Source: Microcaldota archaeon
GTDB lineage: Archaea > Micrarchaeota > Micrarchaeia > Micrarchaeales > Micrarchaeaceae
Assembly (NCBI GenBank): GCA_021828155.1
Contig: JAKAST010000001.1
Span: 1-64,000 of the forward strand
DNA length: 64,000 nt
Reading direction: 5' to 3'
The notes under the pieces were generated by a model, which made no database searches, had not been told where the DNA came from, and was given only the letters and a program-made list of their open reading frames with translations. Shown here one piece after another: positions 25,361-55,733 of this stretch. How positions within the stretch are numbered: position 1 is the stretch's first letter; each line of letters begins with the position of its first letter. Both the position numbers and the translations under genes were made by a program.

Positions 25361-26428
25361 TCAATAAAGGGACAATGGTTTTTCCACAAATTTAATGTTT
25401 GAAAACAGCTCTATAATGGAGTTAATTGACGAAATCATTTGTGCACGGGATTTACCGCGTAAGTCCCACCTGTATTTCGAATTGTTACAGTCGTCAATGT
25501 GCAATACCATGTTAGAAGATACTAACGGATTAAACATCCCCTTTTCACACGTTTTTCCAAAAAACGGGCATTTGTTTATGCATATATCTGGGTTAAAAAA
25601 GGCACCGCCTGCAGAGTTCAGTAGAATCACTCGTACGCCATTGACCTCTAACGTACGCTGTAAAGAGCCAAATCCCTCATTTTCTGGGCTATCTAGTATT
25701 CTGGCTCCATATTCTACTTTTAGATATTTTAGCACTTCATCAGGTTTAACATACTCCTCCTTCCAGTAGTCCAAAGGCGACAAACTCGAATACTTGCCTA
25801 TACTATTGTTTATCCCATCCGTTGCTATATACTGATTTTGTAAAAAGAGGTTGAACAATTTTACAGTGAAGCCAAACCTTCTTGCCAAATTAATAATCCC
25901 ATCAATCTCATTCATATTATGTTTAGTGACAACCATGTTTATCCTAGTCTTTATTTTACGCTTTGAAAGGTTTTCTAGAAGATTTTCAGTTTCAGGATTG
26001 AATGTTTTGTAGAACCCGTCTCTCATTTGGTGAGATGCCAGATCTAAAGAAAACTGTATCCCTACATTATCCCTTCTCTGCTCTAAGAAATCCAAGTTCC
26101 TCTTTAGATTCTTGCCGTTAGTTATTATAGTAAATGATATTTCATTATGCATATCAAGCAAAAGGCCAATTTTCTCAAACAACCAACTAACTAATGTCGG
26201 CTCCCCGCCACTTATTTTAAATTTATTAAATCCCACCTCAATTGCTGATTCAACTATAGATAAAAATTCTTCAGCAGACATGTTTATTCCAATCGTCTTA
26301 TTCTGCCCAAACGGATAGCAGTAACCGCATTTGTAGTTGCATTCCTTTATTATCGCTATTGAGAAATAAAGTTGGCTCGCTATTTTCTTGACTTCATCTT
26401 TTGGGGTGATTTCTGGGCGTTGATTCAT
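25361..26428 (-). CDS. Radical SAM enzyme, MoaA-like
   Basis: The CxxxCxxC iron-sulfur motif is CNYKCGYC near residue 31, followed by KISGGEPTL. The C-terminus has a second Cys group (CINKCPFFGKTC...DDC), as in MoaA-like proteins that hold an auxiliary 4Fe-4S cluster. 355 residues. It is 22 bases downstream of the second radical SAM gene and 21 bases upstream of the FkbM ATG. Substrate unknown; no moaC or other cofactor gene is nearby, so molybdopterin synthesis is unlikely. Confidence 0.82.
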   Translation of the reverse strand: MNQRPEITPKDEVKKIASQLYFSIAIIKECNYKCGYCYPFGQNKTIGINMSAEEFLSIVESAIEVGFNKFKISGGEPTLVSWLFEKIGLLLDMHNEISFTIITNGKNLKRNLDFLEQRRDNVGIQFSLDLASHQMRDGFYKTFNPETENLLENLSKRKIKTRINMVVTKHNMNEIDGIINLARRFGFTVKLFNLFLQNQYIATDGINNSIGKYSSLSPLDYWKEEYVKPDEVLKYLKVEYGARILDSPENEGFGSLQRTLEVNGVRVILLNSAGGAFFNPDICINKCPFFGKTCEKGMFNPLVSSNMVLHIDDCNNSKYRWDLRGKSRAQMISSINSIIELFSNIKFVEKPLSLY

Positions 26429-31399: not shown

Positions 31400-32185
31400 T
31401 CACCTGATGCTCTCCTCTATGCGCTTCCTGAGCTCGGCGTGCTTCTTGAACGACTCTTGTATGAGCCCATTTATCTCTTCTGCGCTGAATCCGCCGCTGA
31501 GCCCTTTCTGCATCGCCCGTATTATCTTGCCGTCAGTCTCGATTGTTAGCCTGCCATCGGCAGCGCTCTCCTCCGCGCCAGTCATGTCCAGCGCCACTTT
31601 GTTGTCTATCTTGCCGAACGTGGTAGATGTGACTATGCTGTTTATCTTTGCGGGCTTCTCGCGCTTCGTGTAGTCCGCTGCCCCATCCTTGTAACCGGGC
31701 ATCTTCGCGCTCGCGAGCGCGGCCATCGCTGCCAGCTCGCAGGCGTCGAAGAGGTTTCCATCATAGTTGAGAATGTAAAGGTCCACATAGGCGCTCCACG
31801 CCTTGCCCTCTTCTATGAACATGCCCTCCAGGTCGAGGCAGTTGCCTGCGCGTATGCCCCTGTCGACAACCCTGGCCAGCTCTATCGAGGCCGGGCTCGG
31901 GGGTCCAGTCTCGTAATCTGCATTGGCAAGCGGCAGCAGCTCCGCAGACATCACGAGGTTGCCCTGGTTTGGTGTATCGGGCTTCGGTTCTTCGACCACC
32001 ATCTTGACTCCAGCAAGCACTCGGGTGTTGCCGAGATCGACCTGCGCAGAGCCCTCCGCGTGGTCTATGATGCCCGTCTTTATCGATATGTTCCTAAAGT
32101 CAAGCATGCCCCTCGAATCCTCTCGCTGGCCCTTTGCCAGCAGCTCCTTGACGTATCCTACTCTAACTATATCAAGCGCGCTCAT
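31400..32185 (-). CDS. rrp42: Exosome subunit Rrp42
   Basis: The non-catalytic RNase PH-like subunit of the archaeal exosome ring; it pairs with Rrp41 to form the hexamer that degrades and tails RNA. 261 residues with the RNase PH pattern (GMLDFRNISIKTGIIDHAEG in parts, GSAQVDLGNTRVLAGVK, ELARVVDRGIRAG). Its ATG overlaps the Rrp41 stop by 4 bases. Confidence 0.94.
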   Translation of the reverse strand: MSALDIVRVGYVKELLAKGQREDSRGMLDFRNISIKTGIIDHAEGSAQVDLGNTRVLAGVKMVVEEPKPDTPNQGNLVMSAELLPLANADYETGPPSPASIELARVVDRGIRAGNCLDLEGMFIEEGKAWSAYVDLYILNYDGNLFDACELAAMAALASAKMPGYKDGAADYTKREKPAKINSIVTSTTFGKIDNKVALDMTGAEESAADGRLTIETDGKIIRAMQKGLSGGFSAEEINGLIQESFKKHAELRKRIEESIR

Positions 32186-32916
32186 TGGCTCACCTTGGTC
32201 TCGTAGACACGCTTCAGCGCATCCCGCTGCAGCGCGCTTATCGTCTTGCCCGCACCTATCGCCATCTTAACCGCTTCGTCAAACTGCTCTATTGTTAACC
32301 CTCCGTCCATCTGGAGCAACAGCAATTCGTTGTTCCTCGGTGCTATGGCCATCGGCATGTCCGCATCGGAATAGTTGTCCTCGATCATGTCAAAGTCAAG
32401 CGTTACATGGTCGCCGATCCGGCCCGCGCTAACCGCATAGACGAGGTCCTTCATCTTTATTCCAGCGTTGGCGAGCGCTACTGAGGCCGCAGTAAGCCCT
32501 GCAGCCCGCGTGCCACCGTCGCCCTGCAGTATCTCTATGAAGATGTCGATCTCGCTGCCCGGGAAATCGCTGGTTATGACTACGTTCTCGAAGACCTCTC
32601 TTATTACCTTCGAAATCTCTGTTGCGCGCCTGTTCGGGCCCGTCCTGTTGTGCTCTCCAAGCGACGAGAATGGCGCCATCTGGTACCTGCACTTAATTAT
32701 CGCCTTGCCCGGATCTGCCAGATGCTTCGGCGTTGCCTCCCTCGGCCCGTACACAGCCGCAAGTATCTTGTTGTTGCCCCATTCCAGGTATGCGGAGCCG
32801 TCTGCGTTCTTGAGTACTCCTGCCTCTATCTTTATGGGCCTGAGCTCGCCGAAGTCCCTGCCGTCGAGCCTCTTGCCATTCACTATCAGTTCCGGTTTGT
32901 TCAAAGATGATCCCAT
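32182..32916 (-). CDS. rrp41: Exosome subunit Rrp41 (catalytic)
   Basis: The phosphorolytic RNase PH-like subunit. It keeps RLDGRDFGELRPIKIE, the phosphate-loop region GDGGTRAAGLTAAS and the acidic segment SDADMPMA needed for catalysis. 244 residues from ATG 32916; a start at 32943 would overlap rrp4 by 23 bases. It is 4 bases after rrp4 and overlaps rrp42. Confidence 0.95.
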   Translation of the reverse strand: MGSSLNKPELIVNGKRLDGRDFGELRPIKIEAGVLKNADGSAYLEWGNNKILAAVYGPREATPKHLADPGKAIIKCRYQMAPFSSLGEHNRTGPNRRATEISKVIREVFENVVITSDFPGSEIDIFIEILQGDGGTRAAGLTAASVALANAGIKMKDLVYAVSAGRIGDHVTLDFDMIEDNYSDADMPMAIAPRNNELLLLQMDGGLTIEQFDEAVKMAIGAGKTISALQRDALKRVYETKVSQ

Positions 32917-32920
32917 CAAA

Positions 32921-33544
32921 TCACGTTCTCGACTCGTTTCCATTAATTTTTTCGAGCATGCTCTTTATCCTTTCGGTAAGCCCTGAGGTGTGCGCCTCGC
33001 GTTCCACTGTCAGTACCGCGGCCGTTGCTGCTGCGACATTGCTCCCGCGCATCCATACCAGGCCGTTCCTGCCGACTATTATGTTGCATCCTGTAAGCTC
33101 TATAATCTGCGTAATCATCGTGTTGGCCTTCCCAATAAGCCTGGGCACCCTCACCGCCTTTATCTGCATGAGCGAGCCCGCCCTCAATAGCTTGGGCCTC
33201 TCGAGCACGGCAAGCCTTTTGTGCTCGACGTCGCGTATCTCGGCCTCTATCACGTCGCCAACTGCGAACCTAGCGTTGTCGTACTTGTCCTGTATAAGCA
33301 AGCCATCTACAGCCTCAGTCAGCGAGATGCCGTACACGCCGTTCCTGCCGACACGTTCCACTATACCGACAACCACGTCGCCTGGCCTGGGCTTCCATCT
33401 ACCTTCAAGCTGTATGACCTCGTTGTGTGCGCTGTCATACAAGCCGACCACCTCGGAGCGCGTCTTAGCTCCGTCGAAGTATGTGTTTTCAGCCGAAATG
33501 CGCTGATCTGATATCGCTGTGCCCGGAAGCACTATCTCTCTCAT
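32921..33544 (-). CDS. rrp4: Exosome RNA-binding subunit Rrp4
   Basis: Cap protein of the exosome. N-terminal domain, an S1 domain (GDVVVGIVERVGRNGVYGIS in parts) and a KH domain with the GLIGKANTMITQI-type GxxG pattern (RLIGKANTM). 207 residues. SBDS starts upstream by 9 bases in the same transcript. Confidence 0.92.
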   Translation of the reverse strand: MREIVLPGTAISDQRISAENTYFDGAKTRSEVVGLYDSAHNEVIQLEGRWKPRPGDVVVGIVERVGRNGVYGISLTEAVDGLLIQDKYDNARFAVGDVIEAEIRDVEHKRLAVLERPKLLRAGSLMQIKAVRVPRLIGKANTMITQIIELTGCNIIVGRNGLVWMRGSNVAAATAAVLTVEREAHTSGLTERIKSMLEKINGNESRT

Positions 33545-33553
33545 TTTAATCGC

Positions 33554-34237
33554 TCAAACTATTTTCACTGCCGCCCTGCCCTGCGTCGCGTTGTTGATCC
33601 GCTGGTAGAAGTCGTTCTGGAGCCCGGCCGGAAACTCCACGGTCGCCTGCAGCGAGCCGTCGCCCAACCACTGTTCAGACTTCAACCCAAACTGCTTGAG
33701 TATGCTGTAGCACCTGTTAGATACGTCAGCAGGTATCGTTACCTCTATCTTCACTACAGCGAACTTTATCGGCACCAGCATGTTTATCTTCTTCACCACG
33801 TCGTCTATCTGTTCGGTCGCATTCTTGAAAGGGTCTATCGACACCCTGGCCTCGCGCATGGCGTTCTCGATCCTGAGCGCTGGCATTGGTGCATTTGTTC
33901 TTGGGTCTATTGCATTCCTGGCAATGGTCTCTACTATCTGCTTGCGCTTCTCCTCAGCCAGCCTGTTTCGTTGCTCGGTTGTTACCGGCACATCGCCCTT
34001 CTTGAGTATGTGGTCAACAACCGCAGCGAGGTCTGTGGTTCCAAACACCTTCTTTATCTTCTCCTCGCTCTGGCGCTCGCCCTTCCTTGCATCCTTGAAA
34101 ATCTCCTCTGCCTCGAGCACGCTCATCGGATCCTTGCGCTTCCCTGTTATGTACTCGTACGCAAGGTCCGAATTGACCAGGATCTCGAAATCGTCCTTGT
34201 TGGCGGAAAACTTTGCAATTACAGTTTTAGATGGCAT
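33554..34237 (-). CDS. sdo1: Ribosome maturation protein SBDS
   Basis: SBDS releases aIF6 from new 50S subunits with the help of an EF-2-like GTPase. 227 residues with all three domains: FYSH at the N-terminus (KFSANKDDFEILVNSDLAYEY in parts), a central helical domain, and the ferredoxin-like C-terminus. ATG 34237 starts the conserved region; a longer frame adds six residues. Confidence 0.93.
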   Translation of the reverse strand: MPSKTVIAKFSANKDDFEILVNSDLAYEYITGKRKDPMSVLEAEEIFKDARKGERQSEEKIKKVFGTTDLAAVVDHILKKGDVPVTTEQRNRLAEEKRKQIVETIARNAIDPRTNAPMPALRIENAMREARVSIDPFKNATEQIDDVVKKINMLVPIKFAVVKIEVTIPADVSNRCYSILKQFGLKSEQWLGDGSLQATVEFPAGLQNDFYQRINNATQGRAAVKIV

Positions 34238-34274
34238 TGAATCACACCGCGCCACGGCGCAGGCGTGCAGCGCC

Positions 34275-34970
34275 TTAGAGATAGTTGGTTATCTCCTTCG
34301 GCGAGAAGCTGGAATATCCCTTTTCCTTGGTTATGACTGATATGTCGACATTGTCTGGCGCGAGCTTCTTCTCGTTGATCTTCTTTATGATGCCCACTCC
34401 AAGGGCCACAGCATCGCTTACACTCATGTCATCCTTGAACTCCTTGGCCAGCGTTTCCTCTGCTACGCGCTTTCCTGAACCTATGGCATCAGCTTTGTAG
34501 CCGGAGAACGATGCTCCCGGCTCCACCTCGTAGAGGCGCTTTTCTGTGTCTACGCCGCCGATGAGCAGCGATATCGCGTACGGCCTCAGGCCTCCGTACT
34601 GCGTGGCCATCTGCATCTCCTCGGATATCTCCCTGGCCACGGCCTCTACCGATTCAGTCTCGTCGTACACCATCCTGTGCATCTGGGTCTTGTTACGCAT
34701 AAGGTTGACGACATGCAGACCATCAGACACAAGCCCGCTGTATGTCGCACCTATAAACGAGTCAACCTTGAATATTTTCTGTACAGTGCTTGGTATTATG
34801 AGCGGCTCTGTGATGTTCTTGTGGGCCACGAAAACTATGCCCGTGTCGGCCACTATGCCTATCGAGGTAGCGCCCCTGCGCACAGCCTCTTTGGCGTACT
34901 CTACCTGGAAGAGCCTCCCTTCCGGGCTGAACATTACTCCCCTGTCATAAGCCTGTATATTAGGATACAT
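34275..34970 (-). CDS. psmA: Proteasome alpha subunit
   Basis: Forms the outer rings of the 20S proteasome. 231 residues with the alpha signature YDRGVMFSPEGRLFQVEYAKEA (in parts) at the N-terminus, which gates the pore, and the RGATSIGIV strand. First gene of the SBDS-exosome run in the common archaeal superoperon. The double-AAA protein at 42-44.8 kb is a candidate unfoldase partner. The gap 34971-35110 holds a GC-rich hairpin region and a likely TATA box near 35095-35104. Confidence 0.95.
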   Translation of the reverse strand: MYPNIQAYDRGVMFSPEGRLFQVEYAKEAVRRGATSIGIVADTGIVFVAHKNITEPLIIPSTVQKIFKVDSFIGATYSGLVSDGLHVVNLMRNKTQMHRMVYDETESVEAVAREISEEMQMATQYGGLRPYAISLLIGGVDTEKRLYEVEPGASFSGYKADAIGSGKRVAEETLAKEFKDDMSVSDAVALGVGIIKKINEKKLAPDNVDISVITKEKGYSSFSPKEITNYL

Positions 34971-41993: not shown

Positions 41994-44750
41994 TTATCTC
42001 TGTCCGTATCTCGCGTAGAAGGCCAGATAGTTGCTCATCACCATGTCTGACGCAGAGGGCTTCATTTTGTGTATTATGGAGAGCATGTCCTCCATGCGTA
42101 TCTTCTCTTCTGCCCCGCTATCCATGGCCCTCTCCATCACTAGCGTCTTTGCCTCCCTGCACGCGCTCGCTATGTCTGCACCGGTAAATCCTTTGGTCTC
42201 GTCTCCGAGCTTCGCATAGACTACGCTCTTCTCTACCGGCACCTTCCTAAGATAGGCCCTGAAGAGAGCCGCTCTGTGCGCTGAATCTGGCGGCCTGACG
42301 AATATGAGCTTGTCGAACCTGCCTGGCCTTAGTATTGCCGGGTCGAGCGCCTCGGGCTTGTTGGTGGCGCCAACCACAACCACGTCGACATTTTTCCTTA
42401 TGCCATCCATCTCCTGCAGGAACTCGCCGGTCACCTGCGCGGCGTACTCGTTCATGGCGCTTCTGTTCATCACAATGTCATCGATCTCGTCTATGAATAT
42501 TATCGAGGGCTTGTTCTCCTGAGCCCTGTAGAATATGTCCTTTATCGTAGCCCCTGCCCTCTCCATGCCGCCCTGCTGCAGCGTAGCTCCGTCTATCTCG
42601 AGCATGGTTATGCCGCGCAGCTCGTGGGTTATGGCCCTCATCAGCATCGTCTTGCCCGTGCCCGGCGGCCCGAAGAGAAGTATGCCATTTATGTTCTTTA
42701 TGTCGTATTTGGCGATGAGGTCGGGGTGCATCAGCGGCAGCTGCACAGCCTCGACTATGGCTTTTTTTGCATCCTCGAGGCCTATCACGTCGTCGAACGA
42801 TATACCCTCACTCTCGTTGGTTCCAGTAGAAGTAACACCGCGCGACCTGTCGAAGTCGAGCTTGAACCTGTTGTAATCATCTACCTGCGCCAGTGAGGTC
42901 GAGGCTTTTGTTGTGCGTATTGCATCCTCGAGGTCGTCCATGCCTATCTCTATTATCCTGTGCTCCTCCGCGGCTCTCTGCGCCACCTGCTGCGCCACAT
43001 TCTGGCACACGCCGCGTATGTCCGCGCCGGAATACCTTTCGGTCATCTGTGCTAGCTTGCCTATATCTACATCGCCCGCAATCGGCAGCTTCGAAAGGTA
43101 TATATTGAATATGGCCTTCCTGCCCTTTTCGTCTGGCAGGTGCATGTATATGACCCTGTCGAACCTGCCGGGCCTGAGGACCGCAGCGTCTAGCGCATTG
43201 GGTATGTTGGTCGCGCCAACAATGAGTACGCGCTCCAGTTTCTGGAAGCCGTCCATCTCCTGCAGGAATTGCGAGAGCAGGTGCCTGTGCACGTCGTCGG
43301 TTTCGGCCAGCCTGCTCGAGCATATGCTGTCTATCTCGTCTATGAAGAGCACGCAGGGTGTGTTCTTCTTCGCGGTGTCGAATATGCCCGCAAGCATCTT
43401 CTCGCTCTCTCCGGGATACGCGGATATCAGATTTGCGGACTTAACGTAGTAGAAATTCGCGTGTATCTCATTGGCGAGCGCGCGCATCATCATGGTCTTG
43501 CCCGTGCCCGGCGGCCCGAAGAACACTATGCCCTTCACTGGGTTGACATTGTAGGCGCGCGACACACCCCTCTGCTCTATGGGCCCTATCACTGCCTCCT
43601 TGAGCTCCTTCTTCACGCGATCGTAGTTACCAACGTCGTCGAATGTCTCTGTAACATTGCCCTGCTCAAGGTCCTCGAACGCCTCGCCGAACTTCATCCT
43701 TACGTCCTGCTTCCTGACGTCAAGGGCCTTGACTATATGGATGTTGTAGAGCTCCATGAACGCAATAGCCACTGGCGCGAGCACGAAGCTCGCGAACGGT
43801 ATTGCATAGATTATTGCCTGCCCGGAGTATAGCGACACGCCGACCGCGGTCAGCGGATATGCAAGGCCTATGAATGATGCTTTTGTGCCCTTGAACTTCG
43901 ACCTGCTTGTCACGACTGCCAAGTCAATGCCGAATGCCATCGCAATTGCTACAGCTAGCTGGAGCAGGTAGAACATGCTGTTAGCGAGTGCGCTTATAAA
44001 ACCGATGAACGTGTAGTCCATACCGTCTATTATCGCATTGCTTTTGAACAGGTCGTATGCGATTACGCTTTTCGGTACAAAGTTCTGCACCGTGAGGCGC
44101 GGAAGCTGCGGCGTCATGTACGGAAGCGACGGGTTGCCAATCAGGCTGGAGTGCGCTGCGGCCGCATTGTAAATAACGAAGGCATAGTTCTGCACGCCCA
44201 TCACGCCCGAGAGCGTGGCTATGCCTATAAATGCAATTGCGTAGACGGCTGCCGCGCGCTTGAACCCTATCACCAGCGGTACCACTATGAGTAATGGTAT
44301 GAAAAGCGTGTAGCCCGCAGGCGAGAATGCGAGCGCCACCAGCATATAAGCGAAAAGCATGGCGCGGTAGTGCATGTACCCGTATATCAGCGCGAGCGAG
44401 ATTATGAGCACGAAGACGAGGCCGAGCGCAGGTACTACATATGCAAGCATCGGAAAGGTTATGACCATCAGCACGACTACGCCGAGGAAGGGTTTGTACA
44501 GCGCGGCCGCGAAGAGCGCAGCGCCGAGCGCCACCACAAGAATGTATGGGTAATAGCCGAACGCATACGTAACTGCCAGGAACGCCGCCAGCGCCAGCAC
44601 CGCGTCCATGAAGTTAGGATTTGTCCCTATAATGAGCAGCTTGTCCTTTAGGCTGTAGAGGCCTATAGGCGTAAGTCTGTGTCTCTCCTTGACAAGCCTC
44701 CTTACCCGCTCGCTCTTGACTTTAGACCATTTAGGGCCAGAAGCAAACAT
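41994..44750 (-). CDS. Membrane-anchored double-AAA ATPase (CDC48/VCP-like modules)
   Basis: 918 residues. Residues 48-340 hold about eight to ten hydrophobic segments, with a soluble loop around 190-245. Then come two AAA modules: Walker A GPPGTGKT at 412-419 and 694-701, Walker B FIDEID at 469-474 and 752-757, and Arg-finger RPGRFDR/K at 526 and 808. Normal CDC48 instead has a soluble N-domain that binds cofactors, which is absent here. The protein may extract or degrade membrane proteins together with the proteasome. It is divergent from tRNA-Tyr, with a TATA-like box near 44783-44795. Confidence 0.88.
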   Translation of the reverse strand: MFASGPKWSKVKSERVRRLVKERHRLTPIGLYSLKDKLLIIGTNPNFMDAVLALAAFLAVTYAFGYYPYILVVALGAALFAAALYKPFLGVVVLMVITFPMLAYVVPALGLVFVLIISLALIYGYMHYRAMLFAYMLVALAFSPAGYTLFIPLLIVVPLVIGFKRAAAVYAIAFIGIATLSGVMGVQNYAFVIYNAAAAHSSLIGNPSLPYMTPQLPRLTVQNFVPKSVIAYDLFKSNAIIDGMDYTFIGFISALANSMFYLLQLAVAIAMAFGIDLAVVTSRSKFKGTKASFIGLAYPLTAVGVSLYSGQAIIYAIPFASFVLAPVAIAFMELYNIHIVKALDVRKQDVRMKFGEAFEDLEQGNVTETFDDVGNYDRVKKELKEAVIGPIEQRGVSRAYNVNPVKGIVFFGPPGTGKTMMMRALANEIHANFYYVKSANLISAYPGESEKMLAGIFDTAKKNTPCVLFIDEIDSICSSRLAETDDVHRHLLSQFLQEMDGFQKLERVLIVGATNIPNALDAAVLRPGRFDRVIYMHLPDEKGRKAIFNIYLSKLPIAGDVDIGKLAQMTERYSGADIRGVCQNVAQQVAQRAAEEHRIIEIGMDDLEDAIRTTKASTSLAQVDDYNRFKLDFDRSRGVTSTGTNESEGISFDDVIGLEDAKKAIVEAVQLPLMHPDLIAKYDIKNINGILLFGPPGTGKTMLMRAITHELRGITMLEIDGATLQQGGMERAGATIKDIFYRAQENKPSIIFIDEIDDIVMNRSAMNEYAAQVTGEFLQEMDGIRKNVDVVVVGATNKPEALDPAILRPGRFDKLIFVRPPDSAHRAALFRAYLRKVPVEKSVVYAKLGDETKGFTGADIASACREAKTLVMERAMDSGAEEKIRMEDMLSIIHKMKPSASDMVMSNYLAFYARYGQR

Positions 44751-44878: not shown

Positions 44879-44979
44879 CCCGTTGTAGCTCAATGGCAGA
44901 GCGACCGGCTGTAGTTTGTTAGCTTCTTGCAAAACAAGAAGATACCGGTAGGTTGGGCGTTCAACTCGCCCCAACGGGA
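44879..44979 (+). tRNA. tRNA-Tyr (GTA) with a 29-base intron
   Basis: Acceptor CCCGTTG/CAACGGG with C1-G72, the archaeal Tyr identity pair, discriminator A, T arm GGGCG/CGCCC and anticodon stem ACCGG/CCGGT. The anticodon GTA is at 44911-44913. An intron at 44915-44943 sits at the canonical position after base 37 and would be cut by the tRNA-splicing endonuclease. Confidence 0.93.
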
Positions 44980-53010: not shown

Positions 53011-54100
53011 GTGCAATAAGGTACCGACAATTGCGATGCGGCTTTCAGCCATCGACTCCAGTCGATGCTGCTGGAGGACACTGCTATCAGATTTCGACAG
53101 CCATGCAAGTCTGCTCGTGAGCTTCACGGGCGGCGTACGGCTCAGTAACGCGTAGTCAACCTAACGCACGGAGGAGCATACCCTCGGGAAACTGAGGTCA
53201 ATTCTCCATGGGCAAGGGCACCTGGAAGGAGCCTTTGCCGAAAGGGGCGCGAATTGCAGCGCTTCCGCCATGCGATGGGACTGCGTCGGATCAGGCAGAT
53301 GGCGGGGTAACGGCCCACCATACCGATAACCCGTAGGGGATATGGGAGTATGAGCCCCGAGAAGGGCACTGAGACAAGGGCCCTAGCGCTACGGCGTGCA
53401 GCAGGCGCGCAAACTCCACAATGCGCGTAAGCGTGATGGGGGGAATCTGAGTGGCTTACTTTGTAAGCCTTTTGCCAAGTATAGCAAGCTTGGCGAATAA
53501 GTGCTGGGCAAGACCGGTGGCAGCCGCCACGGTAATACCGGCAGCACAAGTGGTGTCCACGATTATTGGGCTTAAAGCGCTCGTAGCTGGCCTATGCCGT
53601 CTCACGTGAAATATTGGCGCTCAACGTCAATGCGCGCGCGAGATACCCATAGGCTAGGGAGCGGGTGAGGTCAGGGGTACTTACGGGGGAGGGGTAAAAT
53701 CCTGTAATCCTGTAAGGACCAACGGTGGCGAAGGCGCCTGACTAGAACGCATCCGACAGTGAGGAGCGAAGGCTAGGAGAACGAATCGGATCAGATACCC
53801 GAGTAGCCCTAGCAGTAAATGATGCAGACTCTGGTGTTGCGCGCGTCTTGAACGCGCGCAGTACCGTAGCGTAAGTGTTAAGTCTGCCGCCTGGGGAGTA
53901 CGGCCGCAAGGTTGAAACTTAAAGCAATTGGCGGGGGAGCACACAAGGGGTGGATGCTGCGGTTTAATTGAATCCAACGTCGGAAATATTACCAGAAGCG
54001 ACGGCAGGGTGAAGGCCAGACTGAAGATCTTGCCTGACGAGCCGAGAGGTAGTGCATGGCGACCGTCAGCTCGTGGTGTGAACTGTCCGGTTAAGTCCGG

Positions 54101-54617
54101 TAAGTTGACAGAGTGATGTGATGACACAGAAATTGAGGTTGACCCCAAAGACAAGCTACATGCTTGGTATGTATGTGCAGGGCACTCGTGAACGCATTGG
54201 AGTAACGTCCAAGAGCGAAGAGGTGATTGAGCGCTTCGTGAAGCTCGCGATGGATGAGTTCGGCATAGAGTCGGACCACATCCTTTTCGAGCAGAACGAG
54301 GGCGCGACTACCGCCTTCTTCTACAATTCAAAGCTCAAGAGACGTTTCGACAAGGCGCTGGAAAGGAGAGAGAGGCTCTTCAAGTACAGGAACGAGTACT
54401 CGGGCAATTACATAGCAGGCATGTTCGATGTGAGCGGCGGCAAAGATAGGTTCGGCCTGTATTTTCGCAGGCTGGAGCCCACAGACGCGCTCATATTGGA
54501 GAAGCTTGGAGTACATACGACAGGCAGGGCCCGCGTGCGAGTCACACACGCAGGCGAGCTCATCACGCTTATACGTGAGTACAGCCTCGTAATGTCGAAC
54601 ATCATTCGTTGACCCGG
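54101..54617 (+). other. 16S intron 1 (LAGLIDADG-encoding)
   Basis: About 517 bases inserted near E. coli 1099-1102 (GTCCGG...TAACGAGCG). CCGGTAA occurs at both borders, so the exact cut can shift by 7 bases; GTTGAC is also repeated just inside each border. Nearly all of the intron is one reading frame. Likely spliced by the tRNA-type endonuclease at a bulge-helix-bulge. Confidence 0.88.
54121..54612 (+). CDS. LAGLIDADG family intron protein, catalytic residues lost
   Basis: 163 residues. Two LAGLIDADG-type helices are visible: SYMLGMYVQGT (12-22) and NYIAGMFDVSGG (96-107), the single-chain two-repeat design. At the position of the catalytic Asp, motif 1 has Gly21 and motif 2 Ser105, so DNA cleavage seems lost. 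It may persist as a splicing helper or be decaying. ATG 54121 is preceded by an in-frame GTG. The frame fills the intron and stops 5 bases before its 3' border. Confidence 0.8.
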   Translation: MTQKLRLTPKTSYMLGMYVQGTRERIGVTSKSEEVIERFVKLAMDEFGIESDHILFEQNEGATTAFFYNSKLKRRFDKALERRERLFKYRNEYSGNYIAGMFDVSGGKDRFGLYFRRLEPTDALILEKLGVHTTGRARVRVTHAGELITLIREYSLVMSNIIR

Positions 54618-54890
54618 TAACGAGCGAGACCTTCGCCAACAGTTGCAACCTTGGCAGAGATGCTGGGGGCACTCTGTTGGGACCGCCTCTGTTTAAAGAG
54701 GAGGAAGGAGAAGGCGACGATACGTCAGTATGCTCTGAATCTTCTGGGCTACACGCGGCATACAAAGGTCGGCACAATGAGATGCAACGTCGAAAGGCGA
54801 AGCAAATCCCCTAAAACCGGCCTAAGTTCGGATTGAGGGTTGAAACTCACCCTCATGAAGCTGGAATCCCTAGTAATCGCATGTCACTAA

Positions 54891-55733
54891 ACTGTGACGA
54901 GCCGAAAGGCATATAGTAATCACCGTTAAATACAATAGCGGCGACTATGTGCCACCCAAACCCTTTGCAATCCTCTACGAAGAAGTAATGCAGGCACAGC
55001 GCAAACATCGCGATCTTGAGCCAGATATGCTCGTGGATTGCCCTGAGCACTTGCTTATATTCCGGTTGTCCCTTAGCATGGACCAGCGGAAATTTGCAAG
55101 AAAGCTGGGGGTAAGCCAGGGGACCATATGGGCGATAGAGAACGGATACCGAAAGCACATCAGCGCAAAAGTTGCATCTAAAATGCTTGACCTAATGGCG
55201 GCAGAAAAGATGCAGATTCCCACTGCCAAAATCCTAATGGCAAGGCGATCAGAGATTGCCATAAACGGGAGATTTGATGGGGAATATGCTAAGAGGATGG
55301 CTGATAGAGCGGCTTCAATGGAGATCGGCGTAAAGAGCGCCGTACTACAGAAACCGACAAAACAGGAAGCAGTTTTGCTAGATGAGCTGACTAGGCAAGG
55401 AATGGCCTTCCAGTTCCATGGTATAATCGAGGCCGGTAGGAAATTTGTCGTGGATTTTGTGTTTCCATCGAGCAGGTCTCCAAAGGTGGTTCTCGAAGCG
55501 AAAGATTTGCAGCTAAACTACAGGAAAAGGATGCAAGCAATAGATCTGGCATACAGAGCGCTCAAGATACGCCAAACCTACCCCCGCATCAAGCTAGTTG
55601 CGGTAATCGCCGGTGGTATACAAAATGATGCTTTAACTATACTCAAGGATGAGTATGACAAAGTCCTGCAAAATCCTTCTTCTGTAGAGGTTGCAAATAC
55701 TATAAGGGGTTTGGTCGGTTCGACAGTGTGAAT
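54891..55733 (+). other. 16S intron 2 (HTH-nuclease-encoding)
   Basis: About 843 bases inserted in the loop of helix 43 (near E. coli 1360-1365) between ATGTCACTA and TCGTGCGGTG. Border sequences ACTGT...ACAGT pair at the base of a stem, as expected for bulge-helix-bulge splicing. Borders are good to about 5 bases. Confidence 0.82.
54949..55731 (+). CDS. XRE-type HTH plus PD-(D/E)XK/Vsr-like nuclease, putative homing endonuclease
   Basis: 260 residues from GTG (or 247 from ATG 54988). Residues 34-70 form an XRE-type helix-turn-helix (MDQRKFARKLGVSQGTIWAI). A helical linker follows. Residues 137-222 look like the Vsr/DUF559/EDxHD nuclease fold: Glu140 in the first helix, then VVDFVFP (Asp169) and VVLEAK (Glu183, Lys185), followed by a helix and a hydrophobic strand (IKLVAVIAG). 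No LAGLIDADG motif. It fills intron 2, so a role in intron homing is the natural guess. AT-richer than the exons. Confidence 0.7.
   Translation: MPPKPFAILYEEVMQAQRKHRDLEPDMLVDCPEHLLIFRLSLSMDQRKFARKLGVSQGTIWAIENGYRKHISAKVASKMLDLMAAEKMQIPTAKILMARRSEIAINGRFDGEYAKRMADRAASMEIGVKSAVLQKPTKQEAVLLDELTRQGMAFQFHGIIEAGRKFVVDFVFPSSRSPKVVLEAKDLQLNYRKRMQAIDLAYRALKIRQTYPRIKLVAVIAGGIQNDALTILKDEYDKVLQNPSSVEVANTIRGLVGSTV

Follow-up and report, generated by a model that had tools for sequence, protein, structure and literature searches.

A Ten-Helix Membrane Domain Fused to a Double AAA ATPase in Micrarchaeota: A Candidate Membrane-Embedded Unfoldase

Introduction

Membrane-anchored AAA proteins are already known. 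FtsH-type proteases, a group that we take together with the m-AAA and i-AAA enzymes, have about two membrane helices N-terminal to an AAA module with an aromatic pore loop, followed by an M41 protease. Msp1/ATAD1 and Bcs1, each with a single helix and a single AAA module, are membrane-anchored AAA proteins that lack a protease and extract proteins from membranes or translocate them across. In archaea, membrane-bound AAA proteins were reportedly described in Sulfolobus in 2009. CDC48, p97 and VAT combine a tandem pair of classic-clade AAA modules with a Cdc48_N domain, and in the MoxR-vWA systems a soluble MoxR AAA protein is paired with a vWA gene.

How does the protein analysed here, encoded in a Micrarchaeota genome, compare with these systems? 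Like CDC48, p97 and VAT, it has two tandem classic-clade AAA modules (D1 and D2); unlike them, it has ten membrane helices in place of Cdc48_N, no pore aromatic in D2, and no C-terminal HbYX motif. With FtsH, m-AAA and i-AAA it has in common that a membrane domain precedes an AAA module with an aromatic pore loop and, presumably, that it works at the membrane, but it has two AAA modules and no M41 protease, and its AAA modules branch apart from those of FtsH. Set against Msp1/ATAD1 and Bcs1, a comparison made by description only, it has ten helices and two AAA modules instead of one of each. It resembles the Sulfolobus proteins, again by description alone, in being archaeal and membrane-bound. 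Finally, relatives in a second archaeal phylum recall the MoxR-vWA systems in the pairing of an AAA gene with a vWA gene, although the AAA protein is a classic-clade membrane protein and not a soluble MoxR, and no vWA pairing was seen among the Micrarchaeota members. We found no description of this protein in the open-access literature.

Results

The window, by which we mean the whole 64,000-nucleotide stretch of DNA that was analysed, is the first 64 kb of one contig of a 590 kb genome that is 84.7% complete. The open reading frame starts with ATG and its parts are listed in Table 1. It is 42–86% identical to its relatives over its whole length, and therefore it is not a chance frame. Pfam family PF00004 matches the protein in two stretches (E 3.3e-77), together with two AAA lids. 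Only about 20 residues follow D2, which leaves no room for a protease, in agreement with what a sequence-only reading of the locus had stated.

Table 1. Positions of the membrane double-AAA gene and its parts in the window.
Feature	Position	Strand	Remarks
Whole gene, membrane double-AAA protein	41994..44750	-	918 aa, stop included in coordinates; full length kept in relatives
Basic cytoplasmic N-terminus	44613..44750	-	Residues 1-46; model pLDDT <65 up to residue 30
Membrane domain of ten helices, no Pfam match	43749..44612	-	Residues 47-334; AlphaFold2 pLDDT 91; Foldseek finds nothing in the PDB at E 0.001
Long extracytoplasmic loop, few charges	43974..44198	-	Residues 185-259 (about 75 residues, between helices 7 and 8)
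Conserved linker KALDVRKQDxRMKFGEAFEDL, membrane domain to D1	43644..43748	-	Residues 335-369
AAA module D1, all ATPase motifs	42846..43643	-	Residues 370-635
D1 pore loop YPG (aromatic-x-Gly)	43410..43418	-	Residues 445-447
AAA module D2, all ATPase motifs	42066..42803	-	Residues 650-895
GME at the D2 pore-loop position, no aromatic	42561..42569	-	Residues 728-730
C-terminal tail YGxR, conserved, not HbYX	41997..42008	-	Residues 915-918

An AlphaFold2 model of residues 1–362, based on 53 homologues, has a mean pLDDT of 91.1 and a pTM of 0.86. Taken together with hydropathy, it places membrane helices at residues 47–64, 69–85, 87–105, 107–123, 128–141, 146–161, 163–184, 260–281, 287–309 and 316–334; simple hydropathy by itself finds seven to nine of the ten. 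The two short helices, 128–141 and 146–161, could be re-entrant, and the parity is the same either way. Lys and Arg make up 19.2% of the residues in the cytoplasmic internal loops versus 2.3% in the outside loops, with the same direction of bias in all 53 sequences, and residues 1–49 hold 9.1 Lys or Arg per sequence. The predicted topology of the membrane domain is N-in/C-in, and the positive charges support it. The sequence-only reading had proposed a polytopic membrane N-terminus fused to a double AAA protein, and the ten helices, backed by model and charges, and the twofold PF00004 match bear this out.

Across the 53 sequences the invariant residues of the membrane domain and N-terminus include Y32, Y67, P68, G124, G146 and R165, and those of the linker are K347, D349, R351, K353, F354, G355 and E359; the linker peptide pattern was also used to search for named relatives. 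Residues 1–367 have no Pfam match, even with the threshold relaxed to E 10, and across the members the weak Pfam matches of the membrane domain are scattered, each occurring in only one or two of them. Similarly, a Foldseek search of the PDB with the ten-helix domain returned nothing at E 0.001 or better, the best VIA Z for the fold was 5.1, which is within noise, and profile comparison with PDB sequences gave best E values of 9.8 and 0.24. A weak or missing match is no proof of a new fold. As far as our searches show, the ten-helix domain, its fusion with a double AAA protein and the reversed pore-loop pattern described below are apparently new.

Which of the two AAA modules could act on a substrate? 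The Walker A Lys, the Walker B Glu, the sensor Asn and both Arg fingers are present in 53 of 53 sequences in D1 and D2 alike, and the Walker B Asp is present in 53 of 53 D1 and 52 of 53 D2 modules. The departures at the counted ATPase positions are confined to D2, where the Walker B Asp is Glu in one sequence and the Walker A Thr is Ser in two. The pore loops follow another pattern. An aromatic residue is found in the D1 pore loop of 47 of the 53 order-level Micrarchaeota sequences (the other six lack it), 16 of 21 class-level sequences and 11 of 11 from the second phylum; at the equivalent position of D2 it is found in none (0/53, 0/17 class-level, 0/5 second-phylum). The soluble CDC48 proteins of Micrarchaeota have the aromatic in both modules (D1 8/8, D2 7/7). 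Thus, the earlier impression that both rings look active holds for the ATPase motifs, as far as sequence can indicate, but not for the gripping loop of D2. According to one paper, the pore-loop aromatic grips the substrate in AAA unfoldases, FtsH unfolding requires an aromatic-x-Gly loop, archaeal VAT carries such a loop in D1, and eukaryotic Cdc48 has lost the aromatic in D1 and retained it in D2 (PMC5511170). With the aromatic in D1 only, the membrane family would therefore divide the work between its two modules in the reverse sense to eukaryotic Cdc48.

A profile built from just the membrane domain matches in 238 of 301 Micrarchaeota genomes and in 85 of the 96 good ones, and a profile with divergent members adds further ones (for example in G111, G130 and G060); it matches in none of the genomes listed for the Micrarchaeota families f24–f27. 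The named relatives, which include Ca. Micrarchaeum A_DKE and ARM-1, are all Micrarchaeota, a few of them labelled Marsarchaeota. Could the fusion be an artefact of genes that are separate in relatives, as the sequence-only reading had allowed? At 52 of 60 named loci the fused frame is complete and bounded by stops, and the other eight run off the contig on one side. Among 11 short or broken cases inspected, ten run into a contig end and one is interrupted by a run of N, and in no relative examined are the two halves separate genes. On these loci and cases, an artefact or a split gene was rejected. One Micrarchaeota genome (G013) has two copies of the gene about 30 kb apart (G013:C5:40289 and G013:C5:70472). 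Across 52 loci and the window there is no conserved operon partner in Micrarchaeota; the neighbour met most often is a convergent gene, present at 28 of the 53. A proteasome gene lies about 7 kb from the focus gene in the window and, judged by eye, recurs near some relatives and not most, and we base no conclusion on it. One match outside the phylum (G444, E 9.9e-4) is amino-acid permease-like by eye, has no AAA motifs, and was judged to be chance.

The first match outside Micrarchaeota that we accept came from a class-level profile (E 5.5e-8) and lies in another archaeal phylum, the second phylum of this paper. The frame has 1251 residues: besides membrane helices and two AAA modules it contains additional N-terminal parts, and it ends in YGTR, in keeping with the YGxR tail of the Micrarchaeota family, an ending common to the double-AAA members of that phylum. 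The membrane region matches in at least 16 of 194 second-phylum genomes, a lower bound since the query was a single sequence. Comparison of the second-phylum membrane-domain profile with those of Micrarchaeota scored 98.6% for the order-level profile (E 5e-16) and 99.6% for the class-level mixture (E 6e-24), and the motifs PFYP and YQSP are common to the membrane domains of both phyla. Among 12 second-phylum loci read, the number of AAA modules is two at four (L172, L196, L197, L198) and one at six (L190, L191, L192, L193, L199, L200). In L194 the Walker motifs of D2 are broken, and the L195 frame stops within the first residues of D2, a D2-like match following in another frame downstream. The D1 pore loop is WYG in all 11 that were counted. 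Because D2 is absent, damaged or split in some relatives while D1 stays WYG, these sequences point to the membrane domain and D1 as the working core of the family and to D2 as dispensable. As a separate observation, Ras-type GTPase matches in seven second-phylum genomes number 20 in G542, 14 in G485, one in one genome and none in the other four.

Is the protein a member of a described AAA family? It scores 437.8 bits against the CDC48 model TIGR01243 of NCBIfam (cut-off 802.65), 424.4 bits against the PAN model PRK03992 (cut-off 500) and 379.6 bits against the NCBIfam FtsH model (cut-off 600). The best PDB matches of the AAA part are p97/Cdc48. In trees of 73 modules (a quick run) and of 61 modules (without the long-branched D2 of L194 and the modules of a further twelve proteins, but with nine PAN modules added), D1 and D2 of the membrane family form one branch with an SH-aLRT of 96 in both. 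This branch is separate from soluble CDC48, from FtsH, and, in the second tree, from PAN, which forms its own branch. Both trees are without class-level Micrarchaeota D2 modules, whose sequences are incomplete. Within the branch the D1 modules of the two phyla group together (SH-aLRT 98 and 96), and the D2 modules do so more weakly (84 and 88). Taken at face value, the trees suggest that D1 and D2 arose by duplication inside the membrane family, whereas AU tests reject neither a pairing of D1 with CDC48 D1 (p 0.092) nor one of D2 with CDC48 D2 (p 0.172) and so allow an origin from CDC48. Calling the protein CDC48-like fits its two tandem classic AAA modules, but membership is not supported, given 438 versus 803 bits and a branch of its own.

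The sequence-only reading had called for a search for a separate soluble CDC48 and for PAN. A soluble CDC48 gene is present in the host genome (G000:C18); the other AAA-type matches there, assigned by eye, are replication factor C large subunit, MoxR, Cdc6, MCM and SRP receptor, and neither PAN nor FtsH was seen in what is an incomplete assembly. PAN scores over its curated cut-off in none of 116 Micrarchaeota genomes (79 of them good), whereas 18 of the 23 genomes searched from outside the phylum pass it. Proteasome subunits and Lon-domain proteins each occur in 41 of 41 genomes tested. An HbYX C-terminus is found in 0 of 53 membrane AAA members, most of which keep the YGxR tail instead, whereas the soluble Micrarchaeota CDC48 ends in MYR in 8 of 8 proteins read, an HbYX-type tail as the motif is described in PMC11475706. 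Soluble CDC48 is thus more likely to be what feeds the proteasome, with the membrane AAA protein a candidate for work at the membrane. Likewise, the membrane AAA protein was rejected as a substitute for PAN: PAN is also missing in families f24–f27, which have no membrane match, and it is over the cut-off in 10 of 11 second-phylum genomes that carry the membrane AAA protein, the eleventh being fragmentary. The absence of PAN therefore does not explain the membrane AAA family.

Discussion

What does this protein do? We propose a membrane-embedded AAA unfoldase, probably a hexamer, whose substrates would be membrane or membrane-bound proteins that it draws to the cytoplasmic side, and we give this reading about an even chance of being right. 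We counted in its favour the topology and fold, the ATPase motifs, the aromatic residue confined to D1, the second-phylum relatives whose D2 is missing, damaged or split, the near-universal presence in a phylum of small genomes, the separate CDC48, and the presence of proteasome and Lon; we counted against it the lack of an operon partner in Micrarchaeota, the vWA operon of the second phylum, and the 6 of 53 non-aromatic D1 loops. If a hexamer is assumed from the AAA fold, six chains would place the D1 ring directly beneath the membrane. The membrane domain would gather or hold the substrate and may form an exit path, D1 would grip the substrate and thread it, and D2, with its ATPase motifs and without the gripping residue, would stabilise or regulate the ring. 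A Lon-type protease, or the 20S proteasome working with soluble CDC48, would then break down the released chains. A bolder version, which we consider doubtful, is that a single polypeptide supplies both a retrotranslocation path and its motor, with six ten-helix domains as the passage, D1 as the puller and D2 as a support ring without grip. If this were true, the protein would be a one-gene analogue of what in eukaryotes takes several membrane proteins and p97, phylum-wide and shared with a second phylum.

The main rival to the extraction of membrane proteins is that the protein is the cytoplasmic motor of a complex for the assembly or export of surface proteins, its ATPase doing conformational work across the membrane on extracytoplasmic partners such as vWA proteins, in the manner of a membrane-bound MoxR-vWA chaperone; we regard this as possible though not probable. 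It draws on the second phylum, where all four scanned genes for secreted, single-pass proteins directly upstream encode vWA (PF00092, E 9.4e-11 to 1.4e-14) in the same direction as the AAA gene, and where the AAA proteins themselves carry large extra extracytoplasmic N-terminal parts. At L190, L192, L193 and L195 the upstream vWA proteins are secreted and single-pass with Pro-rich stems, and the AAA genes there are of the single- or split-AAA kind. At the double-AAA locus L196, however, the single membrane-anchored upstream gene scanned has no Pfam match, and in Micrarchaeota no such neighbour is conserved, the commonest being convergent, and the outside loop is just 75 residues long.

A second rival is a copy of CDC48 whose N-domain was swapped for a mere anchor and which does its usual cytosolic work near the membrane. 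The p97/Cdc48 structures among the best PDB matches and the CDC48-like pairings that the AU tests do not reject (p 0.092 and 0.172) are consistent with such an origin, but ten helices with invariant residues from Y32 to R165 exceed the needs of an anchor, D2 has no pore aromatic, and the AAA modules sit on their own branch (SH-aLRT 96); we hold it to be improbable. Least probable, and very unlikely in our judgement, is a membrane-tethered partner that feeds the 20S proteasome directly, as the sequence-only reading had suggested: the lack of PAN beside ubiquitous proteasome subunits would suit it, but the missing HbYX motif, a soluble CDC48 whose MYR tail fills the role already, and the coexistence with PAN in the second phylum speak against it.

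The removal of faulty or mistargeted membrane proteins in archaea is poorly known, and this family may be the means by which these cells draw proteins out of the membrane; a near-universal gene in a phylum of small-genome, mostly uncultured archaea offers a concrete protein on which to test ATP-driven membrane-protein extraction. Furthermore, the natural series of proteins with two AAA modules, with a damaged second module and with one module shows which parts are dispensable, and the family provides a case of double-AAA rings that appear to divide labour in the opposite way to eukaryotic Cdc48.

Other Features of the Window

Just upstream of the focus gene lies an opposite-strand tRNA of 101 bases (44879–44979) that was found with Rfam and missed by ARAGORN; it probably bears an intron. 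The 16S rRNA gene (53055–54979) exceeds the length of the family model by about 450 bases, and the extra stretch is probably an intron. Inside this gene a 164-codon frame (54118–54612) is weakly LAGLIDADG-like (E 5.8e-4, below Pfam's cut-off). Between 22001 and 28000 the GC content falls to 0.37–0.45, versus mostly 0.51–0.56, in a stretch that includes a radical SAM gene (25361–26428) and has possibly been acquired. Finally, at 31400–34970 a proteasome subunit gene adjoins RNase PH-type exosome genes, with what resemble SBDS and Rrp4 genes by eye, which we take to be the known archaeal proteasome-exosome cluster.
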